Notes under the pieces: generated by a model
What the model was told of the DNA's origin: nothing
The model's input: only the letters and a program-made list of their open reading frames with translations
Database searches by the model: none
Shown here: positions 18,540 to 52,125 of the stretch, one piece after another
Layout of the letters: every line of letters begins with the position of its first letter
Position numbering within the stretch: position 1 is the first letter of the stretch
DNA from: a virus
Strand: one strand, 5' to 3'
DNA: 56,899 nucleotides
Virus record (IMG/VR): IMGVR_UViG_3300020183_000087
Span: 1 to 56,899 of that record
Made by a program: the position numbers and the translations under genes

Positions 18540-18956
18540 TCAGTTCAAGAATTGGTCAATGGTGATTGGGCCCATTGTACCATCAAATCGATAATGATAC
18601 TCAAGGGCATTATAGCACACATAATGCGGGTGATCTGTTGGAACGTCAAGTCTACGACACAACTCTTTATGATTGTCTTCCATCAACTCCACAGCATATA
18701 ACATATTATCGACAATATGTTGCTCTGAATGATACTTCCTAAGAGCTTTAAGTAGTTGAATTAAGAAGTTACCATCTCCAGCACAGTTATCAATAAAAGT
18801 AGAATTTGGATTCCTAAGAACTTCTTCTGGTATCTCAGCAATCATTTTATCAATCAACTCAGGAGGAGTAAAAACCTCCTGAGTCTTCTTAATCCGTTCG
18901 TCAGATCTATCTAATTTAGATCCATAAAGTTTATTGTGTTTATTTTTAGAGGACAT
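18540..18956 (-). CDS. N6-adenine methyltransferase-like protein, lacks NPPY
   Basis: A 138-residue protein. QEVFTPPELIDKMI matches the start of N6-adenine methyltransferases, FIDNCAGDGNFLIQLL is a good SAM-binding motif I, and YAVELMEDN is motif II. The chain stops before any NPPY catalytic motif, so on its own it is probably not a methyltransferase. It may be a SAM-binding remnant or a partner of the 1055-residue protein, whose gene overlaps it by 11 bases upstream. Confidence 0.7.
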   Translation of the reverse strand: MSSKNKHNKLYGSKLDRSDERIKKTQEVFTPPELIDKMIAEIPEEVLRNPNSTFIDNCAGDGNFLIQLLKALRKYHSEQHIVDNMLYAVELMEDNHKELCRRLDVPTDHPHYVCYNALEYHYRFDGTMGPITIDQFLN

Positions 18957-21900
18957 TAATACGCTTCAGATAATCAACTTCTTCTCCAGTAAACCCAAAC
19001 TGTTCAGACAGATTATTATAGTCTGTAATTTCAGGCACTTCACCATTTTTAATGGCAGCAGTGAATCCAGTGGTTTTTTTATAATTATCAATATAAAATT
19101 GAATGATTTTAAGATCAAAGATTTTGCTTAGACGATTTCCTTCTTCTTCAGAAGGGATAGGGCACCAACAATTAAGCATACCTACATGTCCATTAGAGAT
19201 AAAAATACCTCCTTTCTTATAAGTGGAGGAGAATGGAACAATAAATTTCAATATATCCCCAGTTGTAGGAACTATATCAGTCCTCGCTATTTTTTTAGAA
19301 GTGTGAAATACTTCATATTTTCCGTCAGGGGTATGGTCTTCTTTGGCGATTGCTTGACCCATCTTCAAAGGAATCCGAGGATGATTTGAATTAGCAATTT
19401 TTAGAAGAATAGATTTTTTAAGAACATCATCACCAAACATAGGAACTCCATCACGAAGATCCCATTCAAACGTACCTTCTTTAGTAATTACAGTAGTTTT
19501 ACCTTGATAAGGTTCATTGACAAGATGCCAACGACAAATAGATACTTTTTCAGTAAAATAATCATCTGCAGTATAATCAATCAGTTTAAGATTATAAACC
19601 GTAGAGAAGAGTTTAAGAAACTTTTTAAACTCTCCAGTGATGCCAAGAACAGAAGCAGGAGTTACCTCACACAGATCTCCACCAGGAGCAAGCAACTCAA
19701 GGTGTTGTTTAACAATTTTAGGCCAGAGTTTATTGTTCTTTGCCTTAGCGGCAGGATCATTATATGGGGGATTAGCAAGAATAGTAGTAAATTTCATATT
19801 CGGATGAGAATCAACCACTTTTACACGATTATCAATATATTTTACACGATTTCGATGACTATCGCAACTCTCCCAAACAGTAAGATCCTGAGAATCAATT
19901 CCACGCTCAAGAAGACGGGCAGTATGAGATCCGCTGGGATCACCAAACATATAAGTTTGAGACAAATCCTTACAGTCATCAATCATAGAATCCAAAAGAT
20001 TTGTGGGGATATGCTTTTGAGTTTGTGAAGATACTGAAAATTCATTAATTGTATTAGATACAGAATCCCTCATACTTGTTTGAATGATATTAGAAACAAC
20101 ACCAATACGACGAGTAAGAGTTTGAACAATATGCGAATTTTGGCGAACGACTTCTTCTAAAATACCTTCATAATCACCAGTAACAAAAGGATAAATTTCA
20201 GAACCAATCACATCATTAATTGAATACACGTTTTGTCCATTACGGATAATGTAGAAAATAGTCAAAGGAATAGACTCAAGTAATGCCTTGACGGTTTGTT
20301 TCTTCAACTCATCAAAATCATCAATCTTTTTTACCCGTTCAATCTCCCGAACAATACAACTCTTGTTATTAGCACCTTGATCATTGAGTTGCGATTCCTT
20401 CATCATGGTAGTAATAGCAGACTTAATCTTCAAATTAAAATCATTAAGTTTAGTAAAATCCAAAGATTCCAGGATGCTAGTAATAGTAGAAATAGTTACT
20501 TCAGTGTCTGCAGAGAGGGCATCTTGAAGCATCTCTTTGGAAAGCAGTTGAAATCCATTGTTCCATTCATGAATATTAGTAAAATCAACCACGCTATATT
20601 GTGAAAGCGTTGGATTATTGTCACATGCAAGTTGAAAAGCCTCATGAATTACACGAAGACAACGTTGAGCATCAAAATCAATTACCCACCAATCATGGTC
20701 ACCAGAACCACCACGAAAGGCAAACTGAGTCCAGAACTCAATTGAATCTCCTCCACGACAATTAATAACAGTATCAATTTTTTTCGCGGTTAAACCAAGA
20801 ACATTTGCAGATTGTGTAAGAATTAATGCTTTAGAATGTTCTTTCAAAAAACGATTGATATCATCTGGTCCATTTGTAGTATCGGATGTAACAACCAGAG
20901 CGGGGTAATAACAATTTACCAATTCTTGGAAAGCGTGACATGCTTTAACATTAGGCATTGCCATCATATGATAGGTTCCTTTAAAAAGACGTTCTCCAAT
21001 GCGAATCTCCCGTTGAGGACCAAAATAATTATGAATAAACTCACGAACAAGAGACTCATAAAGGAACTTATCATCTTTCATGATAAAGATATTTTTCATC
21101 GCATCAGGATCATCACCAAACAATTCTTTATATGCAGAAGTTTGATATTTTGCAAAAGCAACATTCATTTTAGGACGTGGACGTTCAAATACTCCTTTTT
21201 GACTATCAAGTTGTTCATCAAAATAAGTATAAACAAACTTCTGGTCATCTTCAGGGAACATCCAAGAAACTTTATGAGCAGTACCAGAGATGTAACAAGT
21301 ACGAGTATTAAGTGTATCACGAACCTTTATAAATTGAGAGGCGGTTCCACCAACATGACACTCATCAAAAGCAAGATAATCAACATTAGAAATCTTATCA
21401 AGACGCTTAATAATACTTTGAACTGTTCCCCAAAGAACAATATTAACATCGCGCTTCATCCAATATTCAAGTTGAACTTCCCAAGAAAGATCTTTAACAG
21501 AAATATACTTGATTGTAGGAAAGAACCGCTTAGAATCTTTCTTCCAAGATTCCTCAGGAGACTTTTGACGCGAACAAATTACCGAAAGTTTATAATTACT
21601 ATCTACAATGTGCTTTAAAACCATCACTGATTTGCCAGCACGACATTTAGCAAAAAGAAGAAACTCTAGATATTTCTTTTGCTTCCATGCATTGGAAATT
21701 TTTTTCAAAAATTCATTCTGAAAAGGAAATGGGTTAAATATTTCATACTTTTGTACTTTATTAGAGAAGAATTTTTCTTGAACCATCTGAACAATCATAT
21801 CAAGAGTATAAAGTTCAGGATCAAACTCAAAGGTCTCACTATTAGGACCGCCAAGCCTTTTAATTCCAGGAAGAGTATCAAAAAAAGAATGGATTACCTT

Positions 21901-22113
21901 ATCATGACCACGGTCTTTACCATCTTTACGTGTTGATACCTTTTCCCACCATCCACATTGAACATATGCATCCTTGGTTTGAGCAAGAGTTTGCTTTGCT
22001 TTACCATAGTCACTGTCTTTATGGCGTTGTTCATAACTAAATTGAGTTTGACCACAATTAAATGAATTAACGCCGCTCTTAAGAGTGTCAATATAAATGT
22101 TGACCAGAGCCAT
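18946..22113 (-). CDS. Large fused helicase-methyltransferase, restriction-modification-like
   Basis: A 1055-residue multidomain protein. Residues about 1-100 resemble a GIY-YIG/T5orf172-like nuclease (NIYIDTL, NCGQT, R30, VIHSFF, SETFEF), tentatively. Residues about 150-500 form an SF2 motor: AKCRAGKS (155-162), FDECH (249-253), YISGTAHK and FWTQFAFRGG. A helical stretch (520-710) follows. An N6-adenine methyltransferase comes next, with FGDPSGSHTA (723-732) and LANPPYND (779-786). The last 180 residues may recognise DNA. This order (nuclease, motor, linker, methyltransferase, target domain) is that of single-chain Type ISP-like restriction enzymes. A promoter lies just upstream. Confidence 0.75.
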   Translation of the reverse strand: MALVNIYIDTLKSGVNSFNCGQTQFSYEQRHKDSDYGKAKQTLAQTKDAYVQCGWWEKVSTRKDGKDRGHDKVIHSFFDTLPGIKRLGGPNSETFEFDPELYTLDMIVQMVQEKFFSNKVQKYEIFNPFPFQNEFLKKISNAWKQKKYLEFLLFAKCRAGKSVMVLKHIVDSNYKLSVICSRQKSPEESWKKDSKRFFPTIKYISVKDLSWEVQLEYWMKRDVNIVLWGTVQSIIKRLDKISNVDYLAFDECHVGGTASQFIKVRDTLNTRTCYISGTAHKVSWMFPEDDQKFVYTYFDEQLDSQKGVFERPRPKMNVAFAKYQTSAYKELFGDDPDAMKNIFIMKDDKFLYESLVREFIHNYFGPQREIRIGERLFKGTYHMMAMPNVKACHAFQELVNCYYPALVVTSDTTNGPDDINRFLKEHSKALILTQSANVLGLTAKKIDTVINCRGGDSIEFWTQFAFRGGSGDHDWWVIDFDAQRCLRVIHEAFQLACDNNPTLSQYSVVDFTNIHEWNNGFQLLSKEMLQDALSADTEVTISTITSILESLDFTKLNDFNLKIKSAITTMMKESQLNDQGANNKSCIVREIERVKKIDDFDELKKQTVKALLESIPLTIFYIIRNGQNVYSINDVIGSEIYPFVTGDYEGILEEVVRQNSHIVQTLTRRIGVVSNIIQTSMRDSVSNTINEFSVSSQTQKHIPTNLLDSMIDDCKDLSQTYMFGDPSGSHTARLLERGIDSQDLTVWESCDSHRNRVKYIDNRVKVVDSHPNMKFTTILANPPYNDPAAKAKNNKLWPKIVKQHLELLAPGGDLCEVTPASVLGITGEFKKFLKLFSTVYNLKLIDYTADDYFTEKVSICRWHLVNEPYQGKTTVITKEGTFEWDLRDGVPMFGDDVLKKSILLKIANSNHPRIPLKMGQAIAKEDHTPDGKYEVFHTSKKIARTDIVPTTGDILKFIVPFSSTYKKGGIFISNGHVGMLNCWCPIPSEEEGNRLSKIFDLKIIQFYIDNYKKTTGFTAAIKNGEVPEITDYNNLSEQFGFTGEEVDYLKRINVL

Positions 22114-34475: not shown

Positions 34476-37253
34476 CTAGGGGTAACCATAATAAGATGGT
34501 GGAGATGGTGGTGGAGATGGTGGTGGAGATGGTGGTGGAGCTGGTGGTGGAGCTGGTGGTGGAGCTGGTGGTGGAGTTGGTGGTGTTGGTGTAGGGGTTG
34601 GCATAGGGGTTGGTGTAGGCGTTGGTGAAGGGGTTGGGGTAGGAGTTGGTGAAGGAGTTGGGGTAGGAGTTGGGGTAGGAGTTGGTGTAGGGGTTGGTGA
34701 AGGAGTTAGTGTAGGGGTTGGTGAAGGAGTTGGTGTAGGGGTTGGTGAAGGAATTACCATTGATGTTGGTGTTGGTGTTGGTATCGGCGTGGATGTAAAA
34801 TCATCGATGGTCGCTATGGCAGTTTTTGATATTAATGACGTTCCAGTAGTGGATTGTGAAGGAGTATCGGGAGTACCTACACAATCTACGATTCTAATAA
34901 CTTTAAACTTATCTTCATCAGTTAATTCACCTTCGGTATCATCACCAATTCTCCGCACACAAAAAACTGGAGCAATAATTGCATTATAACCTGTTTCAGA
35001 TTTAATGTAAACTTCTGGTCTTTCTGTAAACCCATTACCAGAATTTATAATTCTAAGAGAAGCCACTGTACCAAAAGGTCCAAATTTTACTTCAACCTCA
35101 GCACCACCAAGATTGGGTTCAATAACAACTTGATCCCCTTCAGAATAGTTTAACCCATAATTGTCAATATACAAATCACACAAATATAGTAAAGCAGGAT
35201 AACTACCAATATTAATTACTGGGAATGCATCGAATTCAGTTGCACCATTTACCCCTGTTCCAGGTATTCTAGTTATTCCCCTAACATTAGCAATTTGATC
35301 TTGAATTGGTTGATTAGCATCATTATCAGGACCAAATCCTGGAGTAACATTACCCCCTGGTCCAATTACAGGCAATCCACCCTCTAAAACTTGACGATCT
35401 TCGGGTCTAATTACAGTATCACCAGGGCGCTGAGGAATTTCTGCTCCTGGTGGATATTGTTCCCAGCGTCCATCTGGAGTTCTAATAACAGTATTTTCTG
35501 CTGGAGCCCAAACTCTGCCATCTCCACCCAAATCACCATTTGGTCTTGTTGGATAATCACCTCCAGGACTTTCTATTACAACCTGTCGAACTTGTTGAGT
35601 TGGCAATCCAGTATCTGGATCTGTCCCACCATCTGGTTCCATAATTGCAATTGGATTAACACCCGACCCCTTACCACAATTATCAGATATATCAACAAAA
35701 GGAGCTCTGGTATATCCAGCGCCTCTAGCAATAATATCTACACCCAAAATATCTCCAGCAGCACTTACAATTGCATTACCTCTCGCTCCACTTCCACCAC
35801 CGCCACCCCAAAAAGTAACTTGTGGAGGACCACAAAAAACAGGACCAATATTACAACCATTAGTTGCACTAATAGCACTATTAATTAAGTTACTAAAATC
35901 TACTGCAGCGGCAACTGTATCAATTAATCCAGAAGCACTTCCAACAAGACCCAACGCTTGATCCGCAACTCCTTTAGCGGAATTTATAATCGAATCAATA
36001 TCAAAAATTGCTGATGGTTTTCCACCTTCAAAAATATTCCATTCTTTTGTTTCTGGACATTCTTGATCTTCCTCACAAGCAAAAAACCCAGCAAGTGCTT
36101 TTAAAATATTTAAAATAGAACCTGCAAGACTAAACACACCACCAATCAATCCAGATACTGAACTAATGATTGCATCAATTGCTCCAGCAATTCTTCCTAT
36201 GGTATTGCCCAAAAGGTCTGCAATAAAATTTGCGACTGCACAAGCTGGAACATTGATGTAACGATCAAACATCTGACTAAGAAAATTACCAACCATTTTG
36301 AAAAGATTTTGGATCAACTTGTTAAACAAACAAGTAATCAACTCCATTAAAGCATCATGACCAACTTTTGCTTTATCTCTGTCTGGAGGATTTATAAGCT
36401 CATATAATTTTTTTGTCTGTTTGTTTATTTCTTCTTCAATATGTTTACGAATTTCTTTAAATACCCATTTAATTCCTTGAGTAATAAAGTCTTGTGCTTT
36501 TTGAGTTTTTTCTTGAATCCATTTTTGCTTGTCACCAATCCAACCTTGAGCAGCAGTTTCCCATTCATTTAATTGTTTTTGTGCCTTTTCAATTTGCTGA
36601 ATTAACTCCTGCATTGACTTCATAATTCCATTTAATGGAACCTTTTCACATTCAGTTGGGGAACCAATACCAAAAAGATATTCTTGCATAAGGGATTTAT
36701 CGGATACCCCCCAAAGATTCATTAAATTTCCACCCTCTAAAGGATATTTGTAAGTGCTACTTAACGAAACATTAAATCCAGCAATGTAGTCTCTAAAAGT
36801 ATATCCACTGGATATCTCAAACCCAGTTTTTTGGGTTCGTGGTAAAGCAACATGTTCATTAGTGGGATATACCCCCGTAAGTATTGGACCAGTCTTACGC
36901 ACAGGATCGGACCAAAATCCATAAACTCTAGATCCTTGCGTTGGACCACCAATCAAAACGGCTCCACCGTGGCCAGACATAGGACTTAAACACACTTCTA
37001 CATCTGGAAGTTTTTCATCTGGAAGTAAATCTTTAACTGGATGAATATCATCTATCCTAACTTTAACATGTGTGCCCCAATTACCTCTTGCACAAACTTG
37101 AGGGTTTGCTGTTCCCTCCTCTTGTTCATTTGTAGACCAACTTTCTCTTGGGGCAACTGTTCCCCTCCATCTAATATAATCCATTGCTGGATCATCAATA
37201 ATATTATATGGTACGTTATGAAAATCGCTTGCAGTTAATTTTATATCTGACAT
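34476..37253 (-). CDS. 5: gp5-like baseplate hub/spike protein with long P/T/S tail
   Basis: A 925-residue protein. The first 130 residues resemble the OB-fold of gp5-type hub proteins ([42 protein letters not shown]). A helical stretch (about 205-320) and a hydrophobic region (about 340-395, [17 protein letters not shown]) follow. Two GxGY-type repeats ([30 protein letters not shown]) come next, and the last about 100 residues are almost only P, T, S and A. No lysozyme domain is visible; the hydrolase role seems to lie in the 1041-residue protein upstream. Long proline tails are uncommon in baseplate hubs. Confidence 0.65.
34495..34790 (-). repeat. Low-complexity P/T/S-A coding repeat
   Basis: A tandem repeat in the 3' end of the gp5-like gene. 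Six- and twelve-base units encode Thr-Pro, Ser-Pro and then Pro-Pro-Ala and Pro-Pro-Ser runs. Units vary at the third position, so the repeat is not freshly duplicated. It may change length by slippage. Confidence 0.85.
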
Positions 37254-46182: not shown

Positions 46183-46626
46183 ATGAACGAAAGTATAAAA
46201 AGTAAGTATAGACCATCTTATCCACAAAAATATAAAGGTAATCCCAATAATATTATTTGTAGAAGCAGTTGGGAGAGAAAATTTTGTGCTTGGTGTGACC
46301 TAAATGAGAATATAATTGAGTGGGCAAGTGAAGAATTTTATATCCCCTACATATCTCCATTAGACAAAAAAATTCACAGGTATTTTCCAGATTTTATTAT
46401 AAAAGTAAAAGAATCTACTGGTCAACTTAAAACTTATGTTATTGAAGTAAAACCAAGAAGACAAACTTTACCACCAACAAGAAAGTCAAGAGTTACAAAA
46501 TCTTTTATCTACGAAGCAAAAACTTATGAAGTCAATAAAGCAAAATGGAGAGCTGCTGAAGAATGGTGTAAGGATAGAAGATTAGAATTTAAAATCATCA
46601 CAGAAGACGAACTAGGAATCAAGTAA
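46183..46626 (+). CDS. 4: gp4-like head completion nuclease
   Basis: A 147-residue protein starting with YRPSYPQKYKGNPNN, then SWERKFCAWCDLNENIIEW, DFIIKVKE and TYVIEVKPRRQTLPP, which is the T4 gp4 (also gp50) pattern. The D...E-x-K residues form a nuclease-like active site. The protein finishes heads before tail joining. Its length (T4 about 150) is normal. Its stop overlaps the next start by one base (TAATG). Confidence 0.85.
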   Translation: MNESIKSKYRPSYPQKYKGNPNNIICRSSWERKFCAWCDLNENIIEWASEEFYIPYISPLDKKIHRYFPDFIIKVKESTGQLKTYVIEVKPRRQTLPPTRKSRVTKSFIYEAKTYEVNKAKWRAAEEWCKDRRLEFKIITEDELGIK

Positions 46627-47273
46627 TGGCGAAAAAAACTCTCTTTGAGGAATTAAAAGAAGAGGTAGACGCAGAGGAAGGTAGATCTCCATTTTTTTAT
46701 AGGAGAGCATATCGTAGATTGACACGACAATATTTGAGTAATCCAAAAAAGTTTATACTTGATGAAAAAAGAGATTCTGCACAAGAAGATCCTGATGACC
46801 AAGATGAGAATTTATTAAGAAGAGTTCCTAGGCAGGGACATATTTACATGTTTGAATATGCTCCACCATTTAAAAAGGATGTAAAAATATTTGACCCATT
46901 TCCATTGGTCTATGTCATTTCTTTTGATGGTAGATCTTTTACTGGTTGCAACTTACATTACATTCATCCAATCAAAAGAAAGATAGTCCTTGAGAATTTA
47001 AAAGAAGGTAAATTAACATTGCCTTATAGTTCCATATCTAAATATATAATAAGTCAAATTGATGGACTTCTTTTAGATATTGCATTTAGTGAGTGGTCTG
47101 TTGCCGCCAACTTGCCAATTGAAGGATTTGTTTCTATTATAAATGGTGAGCAAAAAGATTTAATGTTAGAAGACATTTGGAAGCAAACAAACAAATCGTT
47201 TAGACGGATGTTGAGAGGATCCAGAATATACAAAGGATATGGTCAAAAAGACCAAGATTTTAAAGGAACTTAA
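46626..47273 (+). CDS. Conserved-type protein of the tail-assembly operon
   Basis: A 215-residue protein with FEELKEEVDAEEG at the start, YMFEYAPPFKKDVKIFD and PLVYVISFDG, and a basic end. Its position between gp4 and gp48 is that of an uncharacterised protein in cyanophages. No domain is recognised; the acidic-to-basic layout suggests a structural or assembly role. Confidence 0.6.
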   Translation: MAKKTLFEELKEEVDAEEGRSPFFYRRAYRRLTRQYLSNPKKFILDEKRDSAQEDPDDQDENLLRRVPRQGHIYMFEYAPPFKKDVKIFDPFPLVYVISFDGRSFTGCNLHYIHPIKRKIVLENLKEGKLTLPYSSISKYIISQIDGLLLDIAFSEWSVAANLPIEGFVSIINGEQKDLMLEDIWKQTNKSFRRMLRGSRIYKGYGQKDQDFKGT

Positions 47274-47276
47274 CCA

Positions 47277-48728
47277 ATGTCAGCGCAAACAGTAACAGGT
47301 AGTCAAATATCAAATATACCCACAAATCTTCGGGCAGCAAGTTGGTGGGTTAGTGGTACACAAATAGGAACAGGAGGAAATACAAATGTTCGGGTTAGAA
47401 CGGCCACTGCGCCAGGAAATGGGTTAACATATGCTTTTGCAGTAGACCCACAAGGCAATTTGGATTATAACAGGATTATAGCAACAAGAAGAGCTGATAC
47501 TGGTGTTTGGGAACCCACACCTTATGCTAGTACAATCGGAACAGCGTTTGCAGATAGCATAGCAAACAGTGGTAGTATTTTGAATGCTTTTAATGCAGGA
47601 ACAAACCAAGCAGTGGGTGCTGGGCTGGCGGCAGCGGGATCACCATCAGGCCCTAATGCAATAGCAAGTGTTTTAACGGGGGGTGTTCAAGGGGGAAGGT
47701 TCGCAGATCAACTGGGTGTTAGATCACCAGGGGCAGCGCCGCAGTCTGGGAGAACTGGAGGAGACGCGGACGTAACTGGAACTCGTAATCAAGTAAGAGA
47801 TACAATAAACAGTCTTAGCACTACCGCTTTATCCATAATAGGAGAACCTGCTAAAGCAAGGGAGGCAGCTGTTGCTGGACTGAGATACCCAGAAGAATTT
47901 AAACTAGACAGTGGTATGGATTATGTTCAATTCTCATCTAAGACATACGGCAACAAAAATATTAACACAACCACTTTCACAACTGGAGACAGGTCTAGCA
48001 AAAATGCTAAAACAGAAGAATTCGTAATTTTACCAATTCAATCGTCTATAAGTGATGCAAATACAGTTGGATGGAATGAAGAGACTTTTAATCCAGCCCA
48101 AATAATTGGAGCAAATTTAGCAATAGCTGGAATTTCTCAGGGTGTTGGAGGATTTGTTGGTAGTCTTCAAGAAGCTCTTAAAAAGGCTGGTAACCCAGCA
48201 CTTCAAGGTTCAGTAGAAAAAGCAATCATTGCATACTTTACTGAACAAGCAATAGGAACACAAGTTTTATCAAAAGTATCAGGAGCAGTATTTAATCCAA
48301 ATACTGAGTTATTGTTTCAGGGTCCTCAACTTAGATCCTTTAGTTTTACTTTTAAACTAACTCCTAGATCAGAGATTGAGTCTGAAATTGTTAGACAAAT
48401 TATTGGATTTTTTAAACGCAATATGTCCCCGCAAACAGAAAAAAGTGGATTGTATTTAAAAGCACCTAAAATTTTTCAAATTGATTATTTCCACAAGGGA
48501 AAAAAAGATCATCCTGGTATAGGTTTGATTAAAGATTGTGCTCTTCAGTCATGTAATGTTGATTACACTCCTGATGGGAGTTACATGTCATTTGAAAATG
48601 GTGCAATGGTCTCTTATAATTTGTCACTACAATTCATGGAATTAGAGCCCATATATGCAAAAGATTATGATGAAGAAACTGGAAAGGTTGGCAACAAAGA
48701 CGCTAAGAATCACCTAATAGGTTATTAA
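47277..48728 (+). CDS. 48: gp48-like baseplate tail tube cap
   Basis: A 483-residue protein. The low-complexity N-terminal half is rich in G, A and T. The C-terminal half holds the conserved core: RSFSFTFKLTPRSEIE, IIGFFKRNMSPQ, ENGAMVSYNLSLQFMELEPI. This matches gp48 tube caps of T4-like cyanophages and fits its place before gp53. It ends four bases before the gp53 start. Confidence 0.82.
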   Translation: MSAQTVTGSQISNIPTNLRAASWWVSGTQIGTGGNTNVRVRTATAPGNGLTYAFAVDPQGNLDYNRIIATRRADTGVWEPTPYASTIGTAFADSIANSGSILNAFNAGTNQAVGAGLAAAGSPSGPNAIASVLTGGVQGGRFADQLGVRSPGAAPQSGRTGGDADVTGTRNQVRDTINSLSTTALSIIGEPAKAREAAVAGLRYPEEFKLDSGMDYVQFSSKTYGNKNINTTTFTTGDRSSKNAKTEEFVILPIQSSISDANTVGWNEETFNPAQIIGANLAIAGISQGVGGFVGSLQEALKKAGNPALQGSVEKAIIAYFTEQAIGTQVLSKVSGAVFNPNTELLFQGPQLRSFSFTFKLTPRSEIESEIVRQIIGFFKRNMSPQTEKSGLYLKAPKIFQIDYFHKGKKDHPGIGLIKDCALQSCNVDYTPDGSYMSFENGAMVSYNLSLQFMELEPIYAKDYDEETGKVGNKDAKNHLIGY

Positions 48729-48732
48729 AGAA

Positions 48733-51114
48733 ATGCCCAGAGAATATTTTAAACAGGTTCCCAATTTTGAATATGCCGCGTTTGGTATAGAAAGAAATTC
48801 TATATCAGATTATACTACTGTAAAAAATCTTTTCAAGAGAGCTAAGATAAGAGAAGATATTTTTCAAAATATTTCTTATTTTCAAAAATATACAATTCAG
48901 GGCGATGAAAGACCAGACCAAGTAGCTGATTTGTTTTATGACGACCCAACACTAGATTGGTTGGTATTAACCGCAAATAATATCAATAATGTTTATGATG
49001 AATGGCCAAAAACTCAGTATGCTTTTAATGAACACCTTTTACAAAAATATGGAAGTTATGAGAATTTATATTCAGGAATACATCATTACGAAACCACAGA
49101 AGTTGTAACAAGAGCAGGATACATTATTGTAGAAGGTGGTAAAGAAGTCAATGAAGGATTTTTTAAGGCTCCAGAATATGAAATAGAATTAGACCCAAAT
49201 GTTGAATTACCAAAAATTATTCCTGGTATTTTTGCAGCAGGAACAGCATCTGTTAATCCTGTATCTGGAACCGTTACTCAATTAGTATTAACAGGTCCTG
49301 GAGCAGGATATACTGGCATTGGGTCTGTGACAATCACACCACCACCAAATCCAAGAAAAGGAATAGTAGATGTAGCACTCAATGTTCCCCCAGATGAAAG
49401 AGAAGTTGGAGCAATCACAATCATAGATGCTGGAACTGGATATACATTCCAACCAACAATCACATTTAGTGATCCTCCACCAACAATCACTGCACAACTA
49501 ACACCAGTTATTAGTGTTGGTGGATCGATAACTTCCATGACAATCACAAATCAGGGAGATGGATACACATTTACTCCAACAATCACAATAGATCCACCAC
49601 CTGATGTTATTAGTAGTGCATTATTCATTACAGATTCTAATTTTACCGTAGAATCTGGATTTGAAGGATTCTTTATGGATGCACTAGGTATAAGAGTATA
49701 TACATGCCATGGAGCAAGCACTTATACTAGTGGTGTGATTGAACATTATGAGTTATCATCACCTTACAATATAACAAGTGGAACTCAAATTGCAACACGC
49801 ACATTAAACTTTGGCGGTGTATCTTTCATATACTTAACTGGTATTGAATTTAAACCAGATGGAACAAGAATGTATGTTTCTGGTTTAACAGGATCTGGAT
49901 TTAAGATTGCACAATATGATCTATCGACAGACTGGGATATTAGCACCGCAACAGTAGCAGGTGCAATCAGTATGCCAGCATCCTCTGGTATAAGGATGCA
50001 AGATGATGGATTTTATCTTTACATTGTTGACATTCAAGATCCAGATACAATTAAAAAATACGAATTACTGACTGAATGGAATATAACAACTTTAAGACCT
50101 CTTCCATCCCAACAAGCTAATATACAATCATTAACTGGAGAAACTTCAGTCCGTGGTTTTGCCTTTAAAGATGATGGAACAAAACTCTATGTCTCTGGAA
50201 CAGATACCAGACAAATGCACGTATTAGAATTAGGTGCAAATTGGGACTTAGATAGTTTTACTTTGCTAGGTTCTCGTAATATTCAAACAGATAGTGGAGA
50301 CACTATTCCAATGGATGCTTATGCAAATCCATCTGAAACCTTCTTTATCGTTGGTGGATCTAGCAATAGAAAATTATATCGCTACAGTACAGACATTACT
50401 GCTACTGCAACAGCAACTGTTGGAGTAGGAACTACAACATCAGAAAAGATTGTTAGTATAACAATCACAAAGGCAGGTGCGGGTTATACTGCAACCAATC
50501 CACCAAACATTTATATTCAACCGCCAATCCCACATAGAACGGCAACTGGATACGTATTAATCAACAATGGTGGAGTTTCTGATGTTGTCATGGTAGACCG
50601 TGGTTATAATTACAGAACTCCTCCAACTGCTGTAATTGAAAATCCACTTCCACCAATTACAGCAACTGGAGACGTAAAAACAGAAAATGGTAAAGTAATT
50701 GAGTTAACTCTCAGAAATCCTGGTAGAGGATATAACAGTCCTCCAGATCTTATTTTTAGTAAGCCTGGTAATTTATATGAACCTCAAGTTAATGAAGTTT
50801 TTGAAAGAAATGGGCAAGAATGGAAGTATGATGGATTTAATTGGAGAAAAAGAATTAGTTATGGTACAGTTTATTTTGATACTAGAGCAGCAGAAATTTT
50901 AGAGATTAGTGGTAGAGAATCTTGTGTTCCAGTAACAAACTTTCAATATGAAGAACGTGTTGAAAATGAAAAAAGAAATATTTACGTACTAAAACCAGAT
51001 TACTTGACCATCGTTTTAGATGATATTGAAAATATTATGGAATACAAAGAAGGTTCTGAACAGTATGTGTCCAGAACCCTTAAGAAAGGAGATAATCCTC
51101 GTTTATATGATTAA
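48733..51114 (+). CDS. 53: gp53-like baseplate wedge, enlarged by insertions
   Basis: A 793-residue protein, about four times the length of T4 gp53 (about 196). The two ends are gp53: FKQVPNFEYAAFGIERNS and DDPTLDWLVLTANNINN at the start, EVFERNGQEWKYDGFNW and TIVLDDIENIMEYKEGS at the end. Between them lie GxGY-type repeats (GPGAGYTGIG, DAGTGYTFQP, NQGDGYTFTP, KAGAGYTATN, NPGRGYNSPP) and a central block of about 260 residues with propeller-like blades (FKPDGTRMYVSG, FKDDGTKLYVSG). The insert may form a beta-propeller on the baseplate surface. Confidence 0.82.
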   Translation: MPREYFKQVPNFEYAAFGIERNSISDYTTVKNLFKRAKIREDIFQNISYFQKYTIQGDERPDQVADLFYDDPTLDWLVLTANNINNVYDEWPKTQYAFNEHLLQKYGSYENLYSGIHHYETTEVVTRAGYIIVEGGKEVNEGFFKAPEYEIELDPNVELPKIIPGIFAAGTASVNPVSGTVTQLVLTGPGAGYTGIGSVTITPPPNPRKGIVDVALNVPPDEREVGAITIIDAGTGYTFQPTITFSDPPPTITAQLTPVISVGGSITSMTITNQGDGYTFTPTITIDPPPDVISSALFITDSNFTVESGFEGFFMDALGIRVYTCHGASTYTSGVIEHYELSSPYNITSGTQIATRTLNFGGVSFIYLTGIEFKPDGTRMYVSGLTGSGFKIAQYDLSTDWDISTATVAGAISMPASSGIRMQDDGFYLYIVDIQDPDTIKKYELLTEWNITTLRPLPSQQANIQSLTGETSVRGFAFKDDGTKLYVSGTDTRQMHVLELGANWDLDSFTLLGSRNIQTDSGDTIPMDAYANPSETFFIVGGSSNRKLYRYSTDITATATATVGVGTTTSEKIVSITITKAGAGYTATNPPNIYIQPPIPHRTATGYVLINNGGVSDVVMVDRGYNYRTPPTAVIENPLPPITATGDVKTENGKVIELTLRNPGRGYNSPPDLIFSKPGNLYEPQVNEVFERNGQEWKYDGFNWRKRISYGTVYFDTRAAEILEISGRESCVPVTNFQYEERVENEKRNIYVLKPDYLTIVLDDIENIMEYKEGSEQYVSRTLKKGDNPRLYD

Positions 51115-52062
51115 TTAACTTTCAGCAAGACGCTGGAAGTAACTAAGAGCATCATCATCTTCATCATCAGAAGATTTTGAGGAACTCAACGATTCAAGTT
51201 GAGCACTCAGATCGTCAGGAAGTTGACTTTCTTGAGTTTGACGAGAACTAAAGTCTGGTTTAAAGGAACCACGGGTGGTATCCTCCTCTTCATACTCATC
51301 AGGGTCTTGATACTTAGGAGTTCCTTTTTTACCAAGAACATAGTCAAGACGCTTTTGAAGTTCTTCATAAGTTTTAAACTCAGAAGCAGCAACCAGATTT
51401 TGAAGAGAATATTCTGTCTTCCATACACCCTCTAGTGCATCATCATCCTTAAGAAGAGGTGCTTGACGATCAAACTCAGATTTGTCGTAATTCCAATAAC
51501 CATCAACCTTACGAATCTTCAGTTTGAAGTTGGCACCTTGCCAGAAGTCGAAGGGATTGATGGGTTCTTCATCTTCAAATTCTGGTTGCATTGCTGCCAT
51601 AACCTTGTCAAAGATTTTAGCACCATACTTGAAGAGGAATACTTTACCCTCATTAGCGGGATTTGCGGGGTCCTTTACAACATAGATGTTGGAATAGTAA
51701 GACAGTTTACGCTTCTGCTTACGGACAGTTTCTTTGTCCTTTTCGTTGCCACTATTCCAGAGTCCACGGTTATATTCAGACACTGGATCCTTTTGACCAA
51801 TGGTAGTCAGAGAGTTCTCGATATACCAACCACCAGGACCTTGGAATCCATGAGAATACATTTTTACCCAAGGAAGGTCTTCTCCTTCAGGAGCGGGGAG
51901 AAAACGAATAACTGCATAACCATTACCAGTTTTATCCATTTCTGGTTTCCAAAGACGCTCATCAGCACCATTAGAACCAGTGTTCATCTTCTCAACTTCT
52001 TTTACCAGTTTTTGAGTAAGAGAACCAAGTGAAGACTGTTTTTTAAGATCTGCGAAAGACAT
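51115..52062 (-). CDS. 32: Single-stranded DNA-binding protein gp32
   Basis: A 315-residue gp32. The start MSFADLKKQSSLGSLTQK is the N-terminal LAST-like polymerising part. The OB-fold core has RFLPAPEGEDLPWVKMYSHGF, TVRKQKRKLSYYSNIYVVKD and FLFKYGAKIFDKV. The acidic end (SLSSSKSSDDEDDDAL) binds partner proteins. It coats ssDNA in replication and recombination. The ATG at 52062 has GAGGT before it; an in-frame start further out lacks one. Its stop abuts that of gp53. Promoter and leader hairpin lie upstream. Confidence 0.92.
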   Translation of the reverse strand: MSFADLKKQSSLGSLTQKLVKEVEKMNTGSNGADERLWKPEMDKTGNGYAVIRFLPAPEGEDLPWVKMYSHGFQGPGGWYIENSLTTIGQKDPVSEYNRGLWNSGNEKDKETVRKQKRKLSYYSNIYVVKDPANPANEGKVFLFKYGAKIFDKVMAAMQPEFEDEEPINPFDFWQGANFKLKIRKVDGYWNYDKSEFDRQAPLLKDDDALEGVWKTEYSLQNLVAASEFKTYEELQKRLDYVLGKKGTPKYQDPDEYEEEDTTRGSFKPDFSSRQTQESQLPDDLSAQLESLSSSKSSDDEDDDALSYFQRLAES

Positions 52063-52097
52063 TAGATTACCTCGTATTTTTGAGATTCGGCTTGTGT

Positions 52098-52125
52098 GTG
52101 TCCTTTGGGGACTTGCGGTGGACAC
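52098..52125 (-). promoter_or_regulatory. Hairpin in the gp32 leader
   Basis: GTGTCC (52120-52125) pairs with GGACAC (52098-52103) around a 16-base loop, 5-10 bases after the expected transcript start. The loop contains GCAAGTCCCC, one arm of a ten-base inverted repeat whose other arm lies in the promoter spacer. T4 controls gp32 through a leader pseudoknot, so a regulatory role is plausible. Confidence 0.5.

Follow-up and report, generated by a model that had tools for sequence, protein, structure and literature searches.

T4 gp53, a baseplate wedge protein, carries a LysM domain according to the available portion of PMC10966104. As described in the available portion of PMC3004832, it is present in six copies and builds, with gp6 and gp25, the upper portion of the dome that surrounds the hub; it binds after gp6 and then triggers the joining of the wedges. 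Virion propellers have been described in other proteins. The receptor-binding protein Gp45 of phi11 has a propeller of five blades whose cavity could accommodate GlcNAc, occurs as six trimers per baseplate and has the glutaminyl cyclase 3NOL as its best DALI match, and receptor roles have been proposed for both PhiKZ gp131C (seven-bladed) and PRD1 P2 (distorted five-bladed), all according to the available portion of PMC4901313.

We consider here a gene in the IMG/VR virus record IMGVR_UViG_3300020183_000087, of which the whole stretch analysed, 56,899 nucleotides long, is called the window below. An earlier note on this DNA had read the gene as a gp53 of about four times normal length, its two intact ends separated by a propeller-type core with flanking GxGY-type repeats, and had placed the insert on the baseplate rim, where it could bind a host surface or serve to protect the plate. 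We are highly confident that the architecture is indeed one of gp53 ends, GxGY arms and a nested five-bladed propeller. What the propeller does is a more delicate question, for which we propose, tentatively, a role in adhesion.

Identity and surroundings of the long gp53

The open reading frame runs from 48733 to 51114 on the plus strand, ATG through stop, and codes for 793 amino acids; these coordinates, like the strand and the frame, are exact. The product is a T4-type baseplate wedge protein gp53, as Pfam, PHROG and gene order all indicate. PF11246 matches residues 11-108 (E 4.8e-08; 33.3 bits, the cut-off being 21), phrog_232 ("baseplate wedge subunit") matches over two stretches (E 5.4e-55), both gp53 ends lie on one chain, and the gene sits in a neighbourhood of virion genes. 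The N- and C-terminal ends can be aligned with gp53s devoid of the insert, so that the reading of two gp53 ends around an insert stands; a profile of such insert-free gp53s gives an hhalign E of 2.1e-14 against T4 gp53, a value from a single pair forced end to end and with moderate per-residue confidence. The fourfold length is correct when measured against T4 gp53 (196 aa) and becomes 3.1 to 3.7 times against the short class of 215-255 aa. A chance repeat or an assembly error is ruled out by the full-length frame being open across many contigs. The gene and its neighbours are as follows.

46183..46626, + strand: gp4 head closure protein with a TnsA-like endonuclease domain (phrog_218, PF08722)
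46626..47273, + strand: gp2 DNA end protector (phrog_429)
47277..48728, + strand: gp48 tail tube cap, directly upstream of gp53 (PF11091, phrog_230)
48733..51114, + strand: gp53 with large insert, 793 aa (ORF, PF11246, phrog_232)
51115..52125, - strand: gp32 single-strand DNA-binding protein, directly downstream of gp53 and convergent with it (PF08804)

This order, with gp4, gp2 and gp48 upstream and gp32 downstream, is also that of the phages S-SCSM2R and S-H9-2, in both of which one small ORF separates gp53 from gp32. Because the ten matches listed for the gp32 of the window, which belong to Synechococcus phages and two marine single-cell virus records, are 71-78% identical to it (76% for S-SM2), the virus is probably a cyanophage. 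Two further observations concern the surroundings. The gp48 gene (47277-48728) diverges much faster than its neighbours: against locus L011 its product is 42% identical, as compared with 83% for the gp53 N core and 96% for gp4. Elsewhere in the window (18946-22113), a 1055-aa protein has phrog_22930, of unknown function, as its best match; its other PHROG matches are helicase-like and methyltransferase-like, and a match to Eco57I lies below threshold.

Architecture of the insert

The insert comprises about 570 residues nested in gp53: the chain exits the gp53 core after residue ~142, passes through three GxGY units, the predicted propeller and three more GxGY units, and then enters the core again. 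The parts are listed here with the evidence for each.

48733..49158, + strand: gp53 N-terminal core, residues 1-142 (33-108 match the solved wedge protein 9F4A, 12-108 T4 gp53 5HX2)
49171..49611, + strand: first GxGY arm, residues 147-293, three units at 190, 234 and 275 (motif positions)
49612..50400, + strand: five-bladed propeller, residues 294-556 (blade HMM, model, fold matches)
49621..49635, + strand: strand 297-301, read as the N-terminal closing strand of blade 5 (DSSP strand; assignment inferred from order)
49660..49803, + strand: blade 1, residues 310-357 (model strands; weak HMM match, E 0.64)
49831..49971, + strand: blade 2, residues 367-413, FKPDGTRMYVSG (HMM E 4.1e-18, model strands)
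49981..50121, + strand: blade 3, residues 417-463 (HMM E 2.4e-04, model strands)
50149..50280, + strand: blade 4, residues 473-516, FKDDGTKLYVSG (HMM E 3.3e-07, model strands)
50308..50388, + strand: blade 5, three strands, residues 526-552 (model strands; no match to the blade HMM)
50401..50787, + strand: second GxGY arm, residues 557-685, three units at 582, 624 and 664 (model, motif positions)
50788..50862, + strand: short WxYDGxxW segment, residues 686-710 (alignment)
50863..51111, + strand: gp53 C-terminal core, residues about 711-793 (matches in insert-free gp53s; pLDDT below 50 from 769)

The AlphaFold2 model of the window gp53, built from a 41-row alignment, has a mean pLDDT of 84.3; stretches within residues 1-31 and 769-793 fall below 50, and the insert scores 82-96 per ten-residue block, except for 69 at 561-570. 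With a pTM of 0.51 the arrangement of the domains relative to each other is not fixed by the model. DSSP assigns 20 strands across residues 297-552 (297-301 plus 19 more), which we read, from strand order, as five blades of four antiparallel strands, the last of them completed by the N-terminal closing strand. When the model was compared with 967 chains by VIA-align, solved propellers matched over the whole domain. The best was the C-terminal domain of YjiK (3QQZ; Z 19.9, residues 292-553, 228 aligned of 243), accompanied by the glutaminyl cyclases 3MBR (Z 19.7, 222 of 236) and 3NOL (Z 18.9), both over residues 290-555, and 2IWA (Z 18.2). We take these four to be five-bladed propellers. Further down that list come NHL domains (Z 16-17.9) and the designed, presumably six-bladed Pizza6 (Z 16-17.4), and for this reason the number of blades rests on the strands and the homologues, not on Z. 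In the Foldseek tables for the whole model, hits to the propeller and large-rmsd alignments predominate. One BFVD entry, A0A6J5SCA5 (970 aa), bears the name baseplate wedge subunit; its match to the model has an E of 2.1e-17, and it is possibly a second propeller-bearing wedge protein.

We built a blade HMM on 46 pieces taken from other loci, two of which are gp53 relatives; it detects four blades in the window gp53, the best at E 4.1e-18 and the first at only 0.64; the fifth was not detected by this HMM and is present as model strands. The two blade motifs quoted in the earlier note, those of blades 2 and 4, are there and form a 45-nt direct repeat, 78% alike. Its propeller-type core is thus borne out by HMM matches, by full-length relatives and by the strands of five blades in a model that, as it had proposed to check, has propeller geometry. 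Among 101 closed non-gp53 ORFs with the propeller, a set that includes near-copies and 8 ORFs that supplied seed pieces for the HMM, the raw count is a multiple of five blades in 78 (52 with 5, 23 with 10 and 3 with 15), and a strict count of hits of at least 28 aa gives such a multiple in 42. By profile, the best solved relative of the propeller is the surface-layer propeller 1L0Q (E 9.3e-08), which we take to be an archaeal YVTN propeller of seven blades, unlike that of the window gp53. A single-sequence search of solved structures found no propeller relative for the window gp53, and the Lactonase/YVTN families (PF10282, TIGR02276) gave no match to it with Pfam scanned to E 10 and NCBIfam to E 1, settings at which weak hits may be filtered.

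The GxGY-type repeats do flank the propeller, three units on each side, at residues 190, 234, 275, 582, 624 (GYNY) and 664. Their spacings are 44, 41, 307, 42 and 40, and the 307 becomes 44 once the 263 residues of the propeller are subtracted; the propeller therefore sits in register within an array of six units. The first arm has a pLDDT of 82-94 within the full model and a mean of 42 when folded alone, which fits two arms completing each other, the shallower alignment (21 rows against 41) being also a factor. The two arms probably lie against each other and form a single stalk. The PHROG families to which GxGY-type stretches show matches are those of head, connector and baseplate proteins. 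In the window itself, a gp5-like hub/lysozyme ORF (34476-37253) matches GxGY-bearing PHROG families around its residues 450-580.

Distribution, ancestry and conservation

Our sample of gp53s comprises 175 stop-ended ORFs, of which 134 are unique; it was drawn from three named phages and from loci that four viral-contig scans had yielded. The propeller is found in 42 of the 134, a fraction that is not a prevalence, the sample being biased by its queries (it comes from best-hit lists, for one of which the propeller was the query). These 42 proteins are 710-795 aa long, two of them (L056 and L113) being cut at the N end. Without the propeller there are 51 unique gp53s of 215-255 aa, 13 of 272-280, 22 of 329-341, 3 of 376-398, 2 of 488-490 and one of 675. 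The comparison with other phages that the earlier note had suggested thus finds the insert in only part of the relatives; an insert common to all gp53s is ruled out by the gp53s that lack it. In a phage collection, 552 records have the gp53 N end and 11 have the propeller anywhere (E at most 1e-3); among these 11 the annotated gp53 holds the propeller only in S-SCSM2R, and LR756508, which carries no annotation, could hold another case. The insert is a lineage trait.

Propeller-bearing gp53s sit on two separate backbones. A tree of the N and C cores (84 rows, 30 with the propeller) requires two changes, forced by starred branches, and a tree of the N core (111 rows, 31 with the propeller) also gives two, with a p-AU of 0.032 for one clade, in an alignment of few columns and with long branches, among them the propeller rows L001 and L112. 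For the former, a C-core motif filter removed 37 of the 134 sequences, including S-H9-2 and six propeller gp53s (L026, L101, L107, L044, L112 and L253), L056 was then removed, and near-copies of at least 95% were collapsed, from 96 to 84; for the latter, L056 and L113 were removed and the remaining 132 collapsed to 111. Such counts of changes do not separate gain from loss. Between the two backbone clades (30 and 11 sequences) identity is 43% in the N core, 31% in the propeller and 35% in the C core, and since core and insert have diverged together the event must be old. A single origin of the propeller in gp53 is disfavoured; its history could be one of two separate gains with related donors, of an insert transferred as a whole, or of a single gain after which it was lost several times.

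The insert site shows other peculiarities. The gp53s of S-H9-2 (675 aa) and of locus L288 (488 aa) have a different domain there, jelly-roll-like by eye. In the class of 272-280 aa, judged from four of its 13 unique members (L266, L259, L301 and L299), an early stop is followed, some 20-45 codons downstream and in another frame, by the C core, so that gp53 seems to be split into two genes near this site.

The propeller is under purifying selection and is not hypervariable. Six comparisons (Nei-Gojobori) give dN/dS values of 0.05-0.21 for the propeller and 0.06-0.16 for the N core, ratios that are rough, as dS exceeds 1 in several of them; one C-core value of 1.21 rests on a dS of 0.03. Over 31 sequences, mean entropy is 1.04 in the propeller versus 0.81 and 0.94 in the gp53 ends, with the minimum in blade 2 and strands A4-B4. 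Against locus L011 the propeller is 93% identical, more than the N core (83%) and gp48 (42%), and at more distant loci it falls below the N core (60 against 65% in L021, 43 against 65% in L046). The idea of a hypervariable receptor-binding tip is unsupported by such ratios and by an entropy like that of the core; the rapid divergence of the tip that is common in receptor-binding proteins, without defining them, was not seen in the gp53 propeller.

Homologous propellers occur in quite different proteins. Tail-fibre-like ends are present on two of the five phage proteins tested, and in L173, the one protein tested from SAR11, the propeller is followed by an autotransporter beta-barrel (PF03797, E 1.3e-26). 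PF10282 is matched by six of seven other propeller proteins, namely five of six phage-type ones and the SAR11 one. Several SAR11 (Pelagibacteraceae) loci, L173 and L182 among them, have ORFs of ~720 aa with the same propeller toward the N end. Viral loci such as L125 and L147 have stand-alone ORFs of ten blades, spaced by ~51 residues, perhaps two five-bladed propellers in tandem, and in S-SKS1 (L334, HQ633071 134230-134817) a propeller-coding stretch is without an annotated gene in the record.

Possible roles of the propeller and comparison with known systems

We think that the propeller may serve in adhesion, as an accessory module with a conserved ligand on the host surface, a reading to which we give a probability of about 0.45. 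The ligand would probably be a glycan or another common part of the host envelope, the stalk of packed GxGY arms would hold the propeller clear of the wedge, and the propeller would help to seat the baseplate, host range being still set by the tail fibres. By analogy with T4, and because T4 has six gp53, there would be six exposed propellers per baseplate. We prefer adhesion to a structural, an enzymatic or a passenger role on account of the parallel with phi11 Gp45 and of the propellers in tail-fibre-like and SAR11 autotransporter proteins. The lack of hypervariability weighs against it: the low dN/dS speaks against an arms race over host range and would fit a structural part just as well. 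So does position, as the rim location of the earlier note is not supported by PMC3004832, where T4 gp53 lies in the inner ring, in the upper dome around the hub; an insert of ~570 residues would have to leave a T4-type inner ring.

It is quite possible, and in our judgement somewhat less probable than adhesion, that the propeller is a clamp or spacer which braces neighbouring wedges, the first sheath ring or the base of a fibre, and which has no host ligand. Purifying selection equal to that on the core and the divergence in step of core and insert between the two clades are what one would expect of such a part, T4 gp53 is itself an assembly protein whose binding joins the wedges (PMC3004832, available portion), and the wedge protein gp31 of phage A-1(L) has an insertion domain in contact with the hub or holding the long tail fibre (PMC10966104, available portion). 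However, gp53 evidently works without the insert in its relatives (the 51 short proteins among the 134), a different domain occupies the site in S-H9-2 and L288, and homologues of the propeller turn up in proteins of a very different kind. A catalytic propeller that cleaves or modifies a surface polymer, in the manner of a lactonase, cyclase or glycosidase, seems improbable to us: glutaminyl cyclases and GH43 enzymes are among the fold matches, and an alignment of 10 sequences, one from the second clade, has E311 and R421 among its invariant residues, but identity to the matched enzymes is 9-14% and a Pfam scan of the window gp53 taken to E 10 brings up no propeller enzyme. Finally, the presence of the propeller on two backbones could suggest a neutral or selfish cassette, spread by recombination and tolerated; we give this very little credence, since dN/dS indicates purifying selection and full-length inserts are found at many loci.

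A large stalked propeller in what is in T4 an inner part of the injection machine may be a new place where some cyanophage-like lineages touch the host. Relatives carry a different domain, or none, where the cyanophage-like gp53 holds its propeller. One may go further and suppose that gp53, taken as a pure assembly protein, offers between residues ~142 and ~711 a place where interchangeable "stalk plus tip" cassettes can dock on the inner baseplate, both in T4-like cyanophages and in related phages. In some lineages it would then be a further organ of host contact in addition to the tail fibres, and the propeller tip would belong to a family of five-bladed adhesins also displayed by bacteria such as SAR11; we regard this broader proposal as rather unlikely in its entirety.

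Among the papers listed on gp53 and cyanophage baseplates, on propellers in phage baseplates and tails, on S-SCSM2R and on SAR11 autotransporter propellers, we found no description of a propeller or other insert in gp53. A relative in a cultured phage is the gp53 of S-SCSM2R (PQ898602, 780 aa; host Synechococcus WH7803), which has the same domain order along its whole length at 29.6% identity, but belongs to the other backbone clade and is annotated only as baseplate wedge protein 53. The gp53 of S-H9-2 (MW147367, 675 aa) carries at this site a central domain flanked on either side by GxGY-type units, two of them strict and the others recognised with a looser motif; this central domain has no propeller match and looks by eye like a jelly-roll. 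T4 gp53 (PDB 5HX2, 5IV5; PF11246) resembles the window protein in the sequence of its N core and in the adjoining genes 2 and 4, and differs in having 196 aa and no insert. The closest functional parallel is phi11 Gp45, whose best match 3NOL comes third in the gp53 propeller's own fold list; as far as the available portion of its description goes, Gp45 is however a separate trimeric receptor-binding protein of a phage with a Gram-positive host and not an insert in a wedge core, and PhiKZ gp131C and PRD1 P2 are likewise other proteins with another blade form. What was already known is thus gp53 itself, and propellers on the baseplate proteins of other phages; what seems to be new, as far as the papers listed go, is a stalked propeller nested in gp53.
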